Assembly: GCA_015661185.1 (NCBI GenBank)
Contig: JACVXU010000022.1
Span: 1-34,509, forward strand
Length of the DNA stretch: 34,509 nucleotides
Direction of reading: 5' to 3'
Origin: Bacteroidota bacterium
Lineage (GTDB): Bacteria > Bacteroidota > Ignavibacteria > UBA10030
Shown here: piece after piece, positions 18,500-23,945 of the stretch
Numbering within the stretch: the stretch's first letter is position 1
Layout: each line of letters starts with the position of its first letter
Program-made: the position numbers and the translations under genes
The notes under the pieces: model-generated
Told to the model about the DNA's origin: nothing
Database searches by the model: none
Seen by the model: only the letters and a program-made list of their open reading frames with translations

Positions 18500-18509
18500 G
18501 AGGTGAGTG

Positions 18510-19325
18510 ATGGAGTTGCAGATTTATCGACATCTTTGGGGAATCACGGAGGCCTGGGAAACGCTCTTCCCGCGTATCAAGGATCTAAAGTACAGCGGCA
18601 TTGAGCATATCCTGCCGGATGAAGGAGACCGGGAGCGATTCCGGAAACTTCTTGATCTCCATGGGTTCGACTACATCGCCCAGGTCGTTACCACGGGCAC
18701 GACCGTCACTGACCACCTCAAGAGCTTTCAAAGGGTTGTCGAGGAAGCGCGTACTCTCGGGCCACGGAAAATAAATTGCCACAGTGGCTGTGACTGGTTT
18801 TCGGAGGAGGAAGCACGGCGGTTTTTCGGCGAGGCGCTGGAATTCGAATCCAGGGTCGGCGTCCCCGTCGCGCACGAAACTCATCGGGGACGAATTCTCT
18901 ATAATCCCTGGACGACGCAACGGATTCTGACAGAATATCCGCAGCTCAATCTGAGCTGCGACTTCAGCCACTGGGTGTTGGTATGTGAGAGGCTCCTGGA
19001 AGGTGAAACTGACATTGTTCGCCAGGCCGCAGAGCGGTGTATTCACATCCATGCGCGGGTGGGGTACGAAGAAGGCCCTCAGGTTCCTGACCCACGCGCT
19101 CCTGAATACGAACGACATGTGCTTGCGCACGAACGGTGGTGGGACATGGTTTGGGATGCGCAGAGACGAAGGGGGATGAAGGAATCGACTCTGACGCCGG
19201 AGTTCGGGGCGCCGGACTACCTCCACACACTGCCGTACACAAGGACGCCCGTCGCCGACCTCTGGGAAATCTGCAATTGGCAGGCAGAGAGGCAGCGATC
19301 CCGGTTCTCAGCGAGAGGGAGATAG
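18510..19325 (+). CDS. Sugar phosphate isomerase/epimerase-like TIM-barrel protein
   Basis: Encodes 271 residues of the xylose isomerase-like TIM-barrel superfamily (AP endonuclease 2 family). Supporting elements are KDLKYSGIEHIL early on, the strand-end INCHSGCDWFS, the metal-site segment VPVAHETHRGR, LSCDFSHWV (Asp/His ligands) and IHIHARVGYEEG. The E-x-H, D-x-x-H and H-x-R arrangement fits a divalent-metal sugar isomerase or epimerase. No signal peptide is visible, so it is cytoplasmic while its operon neighbour is exported. ATG 18510 has AGGAGG at 18498-18503; the GTG at 18507 is adjacent. Substrate unknown. Confidence 0.85.
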   Translation: MELQIYRHLWGITEAWETLFPRIKDLKYSGIEHILPDEGDRERFRKLLDLHGFDYIAQVVTTGTTVTDHLKSFQRVVEEARTLGPRKINCHSGCDWFSEEEARRFFGEALEFESRVGVPVAHETHRGRILYNPWTTQRILTEYPQLNLSCDFSHWVLVCERLLEGETDIVRQAAERCIHIHARVGYEEGPQVPDPRAPEYERHVLAHERWWDMVWDAQRRRGMKESTLTPEFGAPDYLHTLPYTRTPVADLWEICNWQAERQRSRFSARGR

Positions 19326-19330
19326 GCGTG

Positions 19331-19366
19331 AAAAAAAAGAGCCTCTCTGAATCAGAGAGGCTCTTT
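19331..19366 (-). terminator. Strong intrinsic terminator oriented for the - strand
   Basis: Arms 19336-19350 (AAAGAGCCTCTCTGA) and 19352-19366 are perfect reverse complements. On the - strand the hairpin is followed by eight T residues, which makes it a textbook terminator for the small gene at 19394-19567. On the + strand only TTT follows, so it may also weakly terminate the epimerase-like gene. Confidence 0.85.
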
Positions 19367-19393: not shown

Positions 19394-19567
19394 CTAATGA
19401 AACGAATGCCCACCGCGAACATGGCCCGCTGTTACTTTCTGCACTATTTTCAATTGCTTGGAGACCCGGTTTTTCTTCTTGCGCCGGTTCTCAAGTATGC
19501 TGAGTTTCTTGAGCAACGATTTCGGCTGTTCTGTATCCATATTCAAAGGTACATGAGAATCCTTCAT
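19394..19567 (-). CDS. Unrecognised 57-residue basic small protein
   Basis: Encodes 57 residues. It is rich in Lys/Arg (10 Lys, 4 Arg, 4 His against 4 acidic residues), with a central cluster ENRRKKKNR inside a probable amphipathic helix and a glycine/histidine tail (GHVRGGHSFH). No family is recognised; basic composition suggests RNA, ribosome or DNA binding, but that is inference only. Independent signals support a real gene: AGGAGGAAGG directly before the ATG, a TTGACA-17-TACAAT promoter at 19627-19655 with a leader of about 50 nt, and a 15-bp hairpin terminator with T8 just past the stop. It is the only complete - strand gene in the window, between two oppositely oriented units. Confidence 0.75.
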   Translation of the reverse strand: MKDSHVPLNMDTEQPKSLLKKLSILENRRKKKNRVSKQLKIVQKVTAGHVRGGHSFH

Positions 19568-19626
19568 ACCTTCCTCCTGGAGAATTTTGGTGGGATTCAA
19601 AGAACAGAAGAACCTGACTCTAGGCA

Positions 19627-19655
19627 ATTGTAGTGAGCGTACAATCAAATGTCAA
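19627..19655 (-). promoter_or_regulatory. Near-consensus sigma70 promoter for the small basic-protein gene
   Basis: On the - strand TTGACA (19650-19655), a 17-bp spacer and TACAAT (19627-19632) give five of six -10 matches and a perfect -35. Initiation near 19620 would leave a leader of about 53 nt before the ATG at 19567. Confidence 0.8.
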
Positions 19656-19965: not shown

Positions 19966-20925
19966 ATGACTCCATACGACCTTATTATTATCGGTGCCGG
20001 CCCTTCAGGACTCGCCTGTGCGATCGAAGCCAGGAAGAAGGGACTCTCCCTGCTGATGCTCGACAAGGGCTCGGTGGCCGACGCCATTCGGCGATTTCCC
20101 GTCGAAATGACTTTCTTTTCGACGCCGGAGCTCCTCGAAATTGGGGGGGTTCCGTTCACTTCTGCAGGATTCCGTCCGACGCGCGTCGAGTGTGTCCGGT
20201 ACTATCAGATGATTGCCCGGTACTTCGACCTGCCCGTGAAGCAAGGGGTGGAAGTTGTCGGCATAAGACGTAATGAAGCGGGGTTTGAGGTCGTATCTAG
20301 GGATGGGTCGTTTCTGACGAAGAGCGTTGTCGATGCGACCGGTTATTTTGATCACCCGAACCGATTTGATGTCCCGGGGTCGGATCTCACCAAAGTCCGA
20401 AGGTACTACGACGAGCCTTATGCATACTCCGGAAGGAATGTCGCGGTTGTCGGTGGGAAGAATTCATCAGTCGAAACAGCGCTCGATCTTTTTCGCAACG
20501 GTGCCCGAGTGACCCTCATTCATCGCGGCCCAAGCCTGAGTCATGGGGTCAAGTACTGGATACTACCCGACATCGAGAACAGGATCAAGGCCGGTGACGT
20601 CCGTGCGATGTTTGAGACCAGGGTTCAGCGCATTACTCCGGGCTCGATCGTGGTCGAAGGGACGCATCAGGAGGAATTCGCAAATGATGCTGTTTTCATC
20701 ATGATTGGCTATTGCCCCGATACCTCACTCCTTCGGCAGGTAGGCGTGAACATAGATCCCGATACTCAGGCGCCCATTCACAATCCGGCTACGATGGAAA
20801 CGAATGTTAAGGGCCTCTACGTAGCCGGGTCGATTGCGGCCGGCAGATTCAACAACAAGATTTTCATCGAAAACGGGAGAGCACACGGGAAGTTGATCGT
20901 CGATGCAATTGCATCCTCTCATTGA
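19966..20925 (+). CDS. ypdA: YpdA-type putative bacillithiol disulfide reductase (FAD/NADPH)
   Basis: Encodes 319 residues, the YpdA/Bdr length. It has the thioredoxin-reductase-like fold with two nucleotide-binding sites: FAD at GAGPSG (residues 10-15) and NADPH at GGKNSSVETA (from residue 163). The CxxC redox pair of thioredoxin reductase is missing and the corresponding stretch reads VDATGYFDHP, as expected for YpdA. RRFPVEMTFFSTPELLEIGG and the final FNNKIFIENGRAHG are strongly YpdA-like. The enzyme reduces bacillithiol disulfide with NADPH, so its presence implies the organism makes bacillithiol or a close analogue. Ribosome site is weak (GAGG). It stands between the tRNA terminator and atpD. 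Confidence 0.9.
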   Translation: MTPYDLIIIGAGPSGLACAIEARKKGLSLLMLDKGSVADAIRRFPVEMTFFSTPELLEIGGVPFTSAGFRPTRVECVRYYQMIARYFDLPVKQGVEVVGIRRNEAGFEVVSRDGSFLTKSVVDATGYFDHPNRFDVPGSDLTKVRRYYDEPYAYSGRNVAVVGGKNSSVETALDLFRNGARVTLIHRGPSLSHGVKYWILPDIENRIKAGDVRAMFETRVQRITPGSIVVEGTHQEEFANDAVFIMIGYCPDTSLLRQVGVNIDPDTQAPIHNPATMETNVKGLYVAGSIAAGRFNNKIFIENGRAHGKLIVDAIASSH

Positions 20926-20950
20926 TTTTCGGGCCTAGTTTTGTTAATTT
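20922..20950 (+). promoter_or_regulatory. Weak candidate promoter for atpD-atpC
   Basis: TTGATT at 20922-20927 overlaps the ypdA stop codon. After 17 bp comes TAATTT at 20945-20950. The -10 is a poor match, but the AT-rich spacer before atpD contains no better candidate. Confidence 0.3.
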
Positions 20951-20985
20951 ATGTCCAATATTTTGTTCCAAGGTTTTCCATCTGA

Positions 20986-22410
<1,425 letters not shown>

Positions 22411-22417
22411 TCATCCT

Positions 22418-22828
22418 ATGGCAGAAAAAGTATTCAAACTGGAAATCGTAACACCCAAGAAGATCATCTTCAGCGGGGATGTAACCAGCTTCAGCGCCCC
22501 GGGCGTTGTCGGTGGATTCCAGGTGTTGAAAAGCCACGCACCTCTGCTATCGAACATCGCTGTCGGAGAGGTTAAGCTGACGGACGTTTCCGGGAACGAG
22601 TCGCGGTATTCCACAAGCGGGGGGGTTGTCGAGGTCCACGACAACAAGGTGATCATGCTCGCTGAGACCGCCGAGCGGTCCGACGAAATCGATGTCGCAC
22701 GCGCGGAAGCCGCAAGGGAAAGAGCCCGCAAGAGACTTGCCGAGAAGTCAGAAAAGACTGACATCGACCGGGCGCGGCTCGCGTTGTTCCGTGCAATGAA
22801 CAGACTCAAGGTCGCGGATCAACTATGA
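22418..22828 (+). CDS. atpC: F1Fo ATP synthase subunit epsilon
   Basis: Encodes 136 residues, normal for epsilon, which couples the rotor stalk and can inhibit ATP hydrolysis. The N-terminal beta-sandwich (about 1-88) starts KLEIVTPKKIIFSGDV and contains GGFQVLKSHAPLLS; the C-terminal helical hairpin (about 90-136) is rich in Arg, Ala and Glu. ATG 22418 is 7 bp after the atpD stop with little ribosome site of its own, so translation is probably coupled. A strong terminator follows 30 bp after the stop. Confidence 0.95.
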   Translation: MAEKVFKLEIVTPKKIIFSGDVTSFSAPGVVGGFQVLKSHAPLLSNIAVGEVKLTDVSGNESRYSTSGGVVEVHDNKVIMLAETAERSDEIDVARAEAARERARKRLAEKSEKTDIDRARLALFRAMNRLKVADQL

Positions 22829-22857
22829 ACCATGCCTGCACGTGGAGAGAGATGTTC

Positions 22858-22890
22858 AACCCATCAGAAATCTTGGTGGGTTTTTTGTTT
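22858..22890 (+). terminator. Rho-independent terminator of atpDC
   Basis: AACCCATCA (22858-22866) pairs with TGGTGGGTT (22874-22882), nine pairs including one wobble, loop GAAATCT, followed by a T6-G-T3 tract ending at 22890. The alanine racemase reading frame opens only a few bases later. Confidence 0.8.
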
Positions 22891-22925
22891 GTTGAACCTC
22901 CCTCCAGGTTGGTCGGGATGTCAAA

Positions 22926-23945
22926 GTGATGGCTGTCGTAAAAGCGAACGCCTATGGCCACGGCATCGTGGAGGTAGCGACGTTTCTTCAGCACCAGAGT
23001 GTTGACTACTTTGGTGTTGCGAACGCGGAGGAGGGCGTTACGCTGCGGGAAGCTGGAATCACAGCCCCGATCCACATCTTCACAATCCCTGCTACGACTC
23101 AGATCGCAACGTGTACATCGTTTGGACTTGAACCCACCGTCTGCACCGAGACAGAAGCGCGATTGCTCAATGTGCAGGCGCAGCGCTCCAGAACCATCCT
23201 CAGTGTCCATATCAAAGTCGATACCGGTATGAACAGGATCGGAGTGAGACTTCGGGATCTGGGCAAGTTTGTACGTATCTTGGGCAGCCTCCGGCGTTTG
23301 GAGATCAAAGGCGTGTACACCCATTTTGCAACAGCCGACAGGCGTGACAAGACTTTTTCGATGCAACAGCTCGACCTGTTTCATCAGGCTCTAAACACGT
23401 TGCGGGCTGCCGGCGTCGCTCCGGAGGAGGTCCATTGTGCGGGAAGTGCCGGGATCCTCGATCTTCCCGAGTCCTATTTCTCGATGGTACGGCCCGGCAT
23501 CATGTTGTACGGATACTACCCATCCGCTGAAACAACGGAGAGTGTGCCTCTCAAGCCGGCACTCACGCTGAAGTCACGAGTCTCCCTGGTAAAATGGATC
23601 GAACCCGGGGAGAGCGTGAGCTACGGCCGAAGATTCATCGCCCGTCGCCGCACGAAGATTGCGACCCTCCCGGTAGGCTATGCGGATGGGTACATGAGAC
23701 TGCTCACGGGGCAGTCGGAAGTGTTGATCGGCGGCCGCGTGTTCCCGACGGTAGGGACAATCTGTATGGATCAGCTGATGGTCGATGTTGGGGCACACAA
23801 CGTCCGCGTTGGGGATGAGGCTGTCCTGATAGGCCGTCAAGGCCGGAAGCTGATCACTGCATGGGATCTTGCCTCGAAGGTCGGAACAATTCCATACGAA
23901 ATTTGTACGAATATTTCATCACGTGTTCCACGAATCGTTGGGTAA
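22926..23945 (+). CDS. alr: Alanine racemase, N-terminally truncated
   Basis: Encodes 339 residues from GTG 22926 (ATG 22929 is next). Alr interconverts L- and D-alanine for peptidoglycan. The PLP-lysine motif AVVKANAYGHG falls at residue 6 here but near residue 35-40 in complete enzymes, so about 30 residues are absent. Homology-like residues (QVGRDVKV) continue upstream of the GTG to an in-frame TGA at 22893-22895, and none of the three frames beyond it shows the usual N-terminus. The rest is intact: RPGIMLYGYYP, the second catalytic tyrosine (Tyr233) in VSYGRRF, LPVGYADGY and the C-terminal beta domain with GTICMDQLMVDVG. No good ribosome site is visible, and the frame starts directly behind the atpDC terminator. 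Either a decayed gene or a sequence error; the family call is sure, functionality is not. Confidence 0.8.
   Translation: MMAVVKANAYGHGIVEVATFLQHQSVDYFGVANAEEGVTLREAGITAPIHIFTIPATTQIATCTSFGLEPTVCTETEARLLNVQAQRSRTILSVHIKVDTGMNRIGVRLRDLGKFVRILGSLRRLEIKGVYTHFATADRRDKTFSMQQLDLFHQALNTLRAAGVAPEEVHCAGSAGILDLPESYFSMVRPGIMLYGYYPSAETTESVPLKPALTLKSRVSLVKWIEPGESVSYGRRFIARRRTKIATLPVGYADGYMRLLTGQSEVLIGGRVFPTVGTICMDQLMVDVGAHNVRVGDEAVLIGRQGRKLITAWDLASKVGTIPYEICTNISSRVPRIVG

Follow-up and report, generated by a model that had tools for sequence, protein, structure and literature searches.

The question raised by this locus is whether a short, strongly basic reading frame on the opposite strand to its neighbours is a genuine gene and, if so, what its product may do in the cell. 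In the window (the whole stretch of 34,509 nucleotides that was analysed) the minus-strand ORF 19394-19567 translates to MKDSHVPLNMDTEQPKSLLKKLSILENRRKKKNRVSKQLKIVQKVTAGHVRGGHSFH, a protein of 57 aa with 14 K/R against 4 D/E residues, hereafter P57, just as the earlier note had described it. The frame is flanked by a plus-strand TIM-barrel gene (18507-19325, PF01261) and by a plus-strand tRNA-Thr(CGT), and the following features are found in and around it:

19394..19567, minus strand: P57 gene of 57 codons, with the ATG start at 19567 and the TAG stop at 19394-19396
19397..19429, minus strand: codons of the C-terminal 11 residues AGHVRGGHSFH, nearly invariant in homologues
19573..19578, minus strand: Shine-Dalgarno sequence AGGAGG, with GGAGG conserved in homologues
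19589..19605, minus strand: 5' leader element GTTCTTTGAATCCCACC, of the pattern GTTCTTTGAA(A/T)CCCACC, which recurs at the corresponding place in L002-L007, in L007 only in part (six aligned loci)
19627..19655, minus strand: sigma-70-type promoter TTGACA-17-TACAAT, conserved in homologues
19331..19366, minus strand: intrinsic-terminator-like hairpin with a T-run, beginning 27 nt past the stop codon
19770..19842, plus strand: tRNA-Thr (CGT), an Rfam match and the divergent neighbour of P57

The near-perfect promoter and the AGGAGG ribosome site claimed in the earlier note are both present, the former consisting of TTGACA (19650-19655), a 17-base spacer and TACAAT (19627-19632) and giving 11 of 12 matches. 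The 15-bp hairpin with eight T residues was described less exactly: the hairpin and the eight-T run exist, but the stem (19336-19366, with a 3-base loop) has 14 pairs, three of the T residues close it, and the structure lies outside the interval 19394-19655 to which it had been assigned. The claim that its orientation suits only P57 is reasonable, as on the plus strand it ends in a run of only three T, but weak use on that strand is conceivable. Between the promoter and the ribosome site lies the leader element 19589-19605, common to the genus and in part to L007, which could be a regulatory site or an sRNA target. Taken from the window sequence alone, the single promoter-like match is no better than chance (one found in a 3-kb stretch against 1.8 expected). 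For the stricter pattern TTGACA-17-TAnnnT, 0.14 occurrences would be expected over the full window and two are found, the sole other exact one being at 2720-2748 on the plus strand. It is the conservation in homologues that makes the match significant.

For this comparison 31 intact and distinct proteins were aligned, selected by the rule that an ATG should give 57 or 56 residues; under this rule 28 of the 31 have 57 residues and three, from two genera, have 56. AGGA or GGAG precedes 30 of the 31 selected ATGs, independently of the length rule, and only one motif-bearing copy failed it. That copy, in genome G084 (L028/L068), carries the motif in a frame without an ATG at the family length, owing to either sequencing error or decay, and was left out, as was a second copy in genome G058. 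The latter (L128, 97-270) is diverged, has exactly 57 codons, ends in GHVRSGHAFH with RSG for RGG and lies on another contig than the normal copy; G058 is the only carrier of 32 with two good matches.

The exact TTGACA-17-TAnnnT is found no more than 220 nt upstream in 25 of the 31 homologues (shuffled mean 0.06, maximum 1), GGAGG stands ahead of the start in 24 (shuffled mean 0.22, maximum 3) and a terminator-like hairpin follows no more than 120 nt from the stop in 23 (shuffled mean 6.35, maximum 10). A match of at least 6 bases to the complement of the anti-Shine-Dalgarno sequence precedes 22 of the 31 P57 genes; among 178 longer genes it is seen in 18, and among 178 control stretches inside genes in 2. 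This contrast is somewhat inflated, since the longer genes, from the window and the fetched loci, were read from the first ATG, which is not always the true start, and include some orthologues. P57 is a stand-alone gene and, judged by these signals, probably well expressed.

The check that the earlier note had proposed, conservation of the frame with a codon bias in relatives, gave a clear positive answer. Besides the 31 homologous frames, ten chosen homologue pairs show a dN/dS of about 0.05-0.20 (dN 0.02-0.29 against dS 0.31-2.7); in two of the ten, meaning-changing codon differences outnumber silent ones, the per-site rates still favouring silent change. When all pairs of the 28 57-codon genes are pooled (pairs that are not independent), the final 18 codons show 4336 differences at third positions against 1289 at first and 1076 at second ones. 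Many synonymous codons are in use for the invariant C-terminal residues, and thus their conservation is not that of an RNA alone, the outcome that the earlier note had named as making the element a non-coding RNA. A non-coding RNA was accordingly rejected, as wobble positions vary freely within the invariant motif; the Rfam scan gave nothing at the gathering score except tRNA, and the predicted fold of the P57 transcript is barely more stable than its shuffles (z −1.89). Together with the conserved signals, these data make it virtually certain that P57 is a real, protein-coding gene, as had been proposed.

Among 120 related genomes searched, the five others of the genus all have a strong homologue, and weaker ones occur in additional families of the order. 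A profile of 28 homologues, with E < 1e-10 as the threshold, detects P57 in 32 of the 98 genomes of the order. The family to which the window belongs accounts for 22 of these carriers (out of 32 genomes), two other families for 4 (of 15) and 6 (of 22), and the three remaining families, with 29 genomes, for none. In the other 66 of the 98, some of which are incomplete assemblies, the profile did not detect it; a weak match in G034 (E 0.06, with an internal stop) was not counted. A pattern scan of one genome per species over 84,980 species yielded 55 stretches, 25 of them confirmed, and all 25 belong to metagenome-assembled genomes of the same order, labelled 'bacterium', Bacteroidetes/Bacteroidota, Ignavibacteria, Ignavibacteriae or Ignavibacteriales (one record is of isolate UBA10030). 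The searches beyond the order covered samples of the larger groups. Across the class (294 genomes including the own order) there were 12 outside matches with E of 0.005-0.094, the best with an internal stop and none convincing; across the phylum (395 genomes, in many of which only some first-look candidates were scored) ten beyond the class with E of 0.027-0.091 were equally unconvincing. A DNA pattern for the C-terminus was found in 33 of 391 class genomes, 31 inside the order, the two outside being taken as chance. From these sequence comparisons P57 appears to be known so far only from one order of Ignavibacteria.

The earlier note had placed the protein in no family, and the profile searches agree with this. 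None of the 31 members exceeds the curated cut-off in Pfam-A (best E 0.016, one member) or NCBIfam (best E 0.1, one member), no convincing match was obtained in PHROGs for 28 of the 31 (best E 0.011, one member) or in PADLOC-DB for the 31 (best E 0.038, one member), and the PDB sequences contain no match to P57. The string RGGHSFH was not found in the literature searched, and nothing that names P57 came up among papers on small proteins of Ignavibacteria, small basic proteins of the ribosome, arrest peptides or catalogues of small proteins; the catalogues themselves lay outside this search and may hold it. Judged by sequence, P57 cannot be assigned to any family described in these libraries. 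A mobile or phage origin was considered and rejected: tblastn of the window protein against plasmids and phages gave no match at E up to 1, and none of 22 pattern stretches in viral contigs was confirmed.

What the homologues have in common is an unusual combination of a fixed length, a variable body and an invariant end. Over columns 1-40, 376 of the 465 homologue pairs are less than 35% identical, and 304 of these are equal in total length, so that by alignment the length of P57 is held even where the sequence diverges. The C-terminal 11 residues, [AV]G[HR][VI]RGG[HY][SAG][FY]H-stop, hardly vary, and conservation peaks at the chain end itself: columns 1, 48, 51, 52, 53 and 57 (including G48, R51, G52, G53 and H57) are identical in all 31 proteins, H54 and F56 in 30, and A47 and column 2 in 29. 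All 31 are strongly basic (11-16 K/R against 0-5 D/E), and mostly hydrophobic columns (18, 22, 39, 41, 42 and 45) interleave with mostly basic ones (16, 20, 28, 32, 37 and 40). By eye, the 31 aligned sequences contain no long hydrophobic run, hence no export signal or membrane segment is apparent. Two AlphaFold trials with the same 26 sequences predicted a helix with a loose tail, spanning residues 14-51 in the first model (pLDDT 72, pTM 0.33) and 5-46 in the second (pLDDT 63, pTM 0.21). Both models are poor and of low confidence, and may be relied upon only in suggesting that P57 does not have a clear globular fold.

The genomic surroundings of P57 are only partly constant. Among the 22 carriers in the window's family, 15 (the window and 14 further genomes) have tRNA-Thr(CGT) upstream in divergent orientation; it was not seen in the other six examined, of which two have less than 700 bases of contig upstream and one has a tRNA-Arg instead. 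In 9 of the 10 carriers of the other two families, where the flank lengths differed, there was no tRNA near P57. Non-carriers of the window's family were fetched at their best tRNA match in 7 of 10 cases: six have tRNA-Thr(CGT) but no P57; the seventh gave no tRNA call. P57 is missing at these six tRNA loci and is therefore accessory and dispensable. At four of the six loci the gene immediately upstream of the tRNA codes for a homologue of a 370-395-aa protein that is found near P57 in 12 carrier loci; the single member of this group that was tested is a phosphatase of the SpoIIE type (PF07228). The distribution of P57 fits vertical inheritance with loss, or local gain. Past the tRNA, the window holds at 19966-23945 on the plus strand genes for a YpdA-family putative bacillithiol disulfide reductase, the ATP synthase beta subunit and alanine racemase, and parts of this block recur in several P57 carriers and non-carriers.

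No operon partner was found among the neighbours examined. The downstream neighbour of P57 in the window is convergent and no plausible same-strand gene comes next, while some relatives have a same-strand gene about 200-450 nt after P57, in clusters of five loci (the one member tested has a polysaccharide-deacetylase domain) and of three (the one member tested has no Pfam match). Comparison of P57 carriage with tmRNA, YpdA, COX1 and bS21 over the order likewise yielded no partner. tmRNA is over the cut-off in 27 of 32 carriers, including the window's genome, and in 52 of 66 others, weaker matches being ignored because the search also rings in archaeal control genomes. YpdA is over the cut-off in 17 of 32 carriers and 32 of 66 others, and therefore shows no link; an earlier hint of one, from its presence in 1 of 10 non-carriers, vanished over the full order. 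bS21 was found in 26 of 32 carriers and 58 of 66 others (84 of 98 genomes), and COX1 in 87 of the 98 genomes overall.

Taken together, the evidence leads us to favour, at a probability of roughly 30%, the reading that P57 is a small protein whose C-terminal tail contacts RNA, with the ribosome as the likeliest target. It would act as a free protein. Its N-terminal 40 residues, rich in lysine and arginine, poorly conserved and probably helical once bound, would serve as an anchor, the tail AGHVRGGHSFH-COOH would reach a fixed functional site, and the constant total length would be the spacer from the anchor to this site. The mechanism, including the binding itself, the tail as the active part and the length as a spacer, is what we infer from the features counted in its favour: the coding character of the gene, its own conserved signals, the charge, the fixed length, the helix models and the strong ribosome site. 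The charge, the probable alternating helix, the fixed length and the invariant end fit a large rigid partner in which the tail is fixed in place, and the ribosome is the likeliest such partner because of the precedents of overlooked small ribosomal proteins and rescue peptides. No structural match or gene-neighbour link ties P57 to the ribosome or RNA, and the basic charge fits DNA or an acidic protein partner equally well. The earlier note had suggested binding to RNA, ribosomes or DNA, any of which is conceivable.

Each of the rivals to RNA or ribosome binding lacks some feature that it would lead one to expect. That P57 might bind DNA, as a nucleoid protein or regulator, or RNA polymerase rather than ribosomes is unlikely in our estimate: the basic composition, the predicted helix and the strong own promoter agree with such a role, but the Pfam scan gave no DNA-binding family, and an invariant C-terminal end is not typical of small nucleoid proteins. 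A conserved C-terminal segment after a variable N-terminal part would also be the layout of a precursor that yields AGHVRGGHSFH by cleavage and modification, in the manner of a RiPP or a cofactor. This we consider highly improbable, as the leader is strongly basic without a conserved recognition segment and the shared neighbours identified in the subset that was profiled (SpoIIE-type phosphatase, ATP synthase beta subunit, YpdA, alanine racemase, TIM-barrel, PHP-type, MgtC-type and polysaccharide deacetylase), include none of the expected modifying enzymes, transporters or peptidases.

Two further alternatives keep the ribosome as the target and change the mode of action. In the first, the C-terminal motif would work in cis, stalling the ribosome at the stop codon as a nascent chain and so controlling its own mRNA or monitoring some activity. 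Conservation that continues through the final residue ahead of the stop, and is very high in that part alone, points in this direction, as does the same-strand gene following P57 in some relatives. For Bacteroidota, PMC10987492 reports motifs conserved at the C-terminal end and an involvement of the termination codon in arrest. The arrest-peptide candidates NAP-stop and NSP-stop described there likewise have a C-terminal motif conserved up to the stop, and P57, as expected of Sec/YidC-type peptides, has a C-terminal sequence that is conserved among its homologues. The P57 motif is, however, unrelated to that of NAP-stop and NSP-stop, and, according to the same paper, the Sec/YidC peptides precede sec or yidC and carry an export or membrane segment, whereas no such segment is apparent in P57 and the window gene does not lie upstream of secA, secDF or yidC (in some relatives the following genes were sampled by single members). 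Instead, the window has the hairpin 27 nt past the stop and then convergent genes, and a constant N-terminal length is not obviously needed for arrest; we find this mode of action quite unlikely. The second alternative, a rescue factor of the ArfA/BrfA/ArfT type that brings a release factor to stalled ribosomes, appears very unlikely. Like these short proteins P57 is small; it is basic with a functional-looking C-terminus and, like BrfA, lineage-restricted. According to PMC8012679, BrfA is likely limited to Bacillus, the C-terminus of rescue peptides goes into the mRNA channel, and the discovery of further small rescue proteins is expected. A lenient scan of the 31 homologues did give ten with a weak hairpin plus T-run close to the 3' end of the reading frame, a count not above the shuffled rate (6.35 of 31 per 120 nt) for 174 nt. 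The terminator before the stop that constitutes the BrfA switch is not seen in the window, where the strong hairpin lies past the stop and none was detected within the frame. tmRNA is present in most carriers, and no family match links P57 to these factors.

The favoured reading, a free protein that binds RNA or the ribosome by its tail, finds close precedents in bL38 and bS22, small lineage-restricted ribosomal proteins that, according to PMC10618245, remained unannotated until ribosomes were solved (bL38 is reported from Flavobacterium and Borrelia). P57 is like them a small protein that annotation could easily overlook, but it differs in having no PDB match, in escaping detection in two thirds of the order, which speaks against a core ribosomal role, and in showing strong conservation at the C-terminal end alone. 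A further likeness concerns bS21 (RpsU): in Flavobacterium johnsoniae (of the related class Bacteroidia) Shine-Dalgarno sites are largely unused, with rpsU as the exception (PMC9976891), and P57 is similarly small and basic, its ribosome site exceeding in strength those of most surrounding genes. The two are nevertheless distinct, as the window's genome has a separate bS21 gene (G000:C192) and P57 shows no match to the bS21 family: at E up to 1 the 31 members match nine Pfam families in all, and PF01165 is none of them. A bolder version, which we regard as quite doubtful, would make P57 an endogenous ribosome-targeting peptide of a new kind, whose basic helix of fixed length docks on the ribosome while the invariant tail AGHVRGGHSFH-COOH enters either a catalytic site or one in the tunnel, acting in trans or as a nascent chain at its own stop, tuning or silencing translation in one branch of Ignavibacteria.

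From this point of view P57 may be considered a clean case of a complete, conserved small gene that could easily be overlooked and stands outside the families in the libraries searched. Its constant length, variable body and invariant C-terminus together suggest that the chain end has a specific molecular task, and the small size of the family together with the shortness of the motif makes a direct test by synthetic peptide feasible. If P57 does act on the ribosome, it would be a lineage-specific translation factor added in a phylum that is already known for its unusual initiation.
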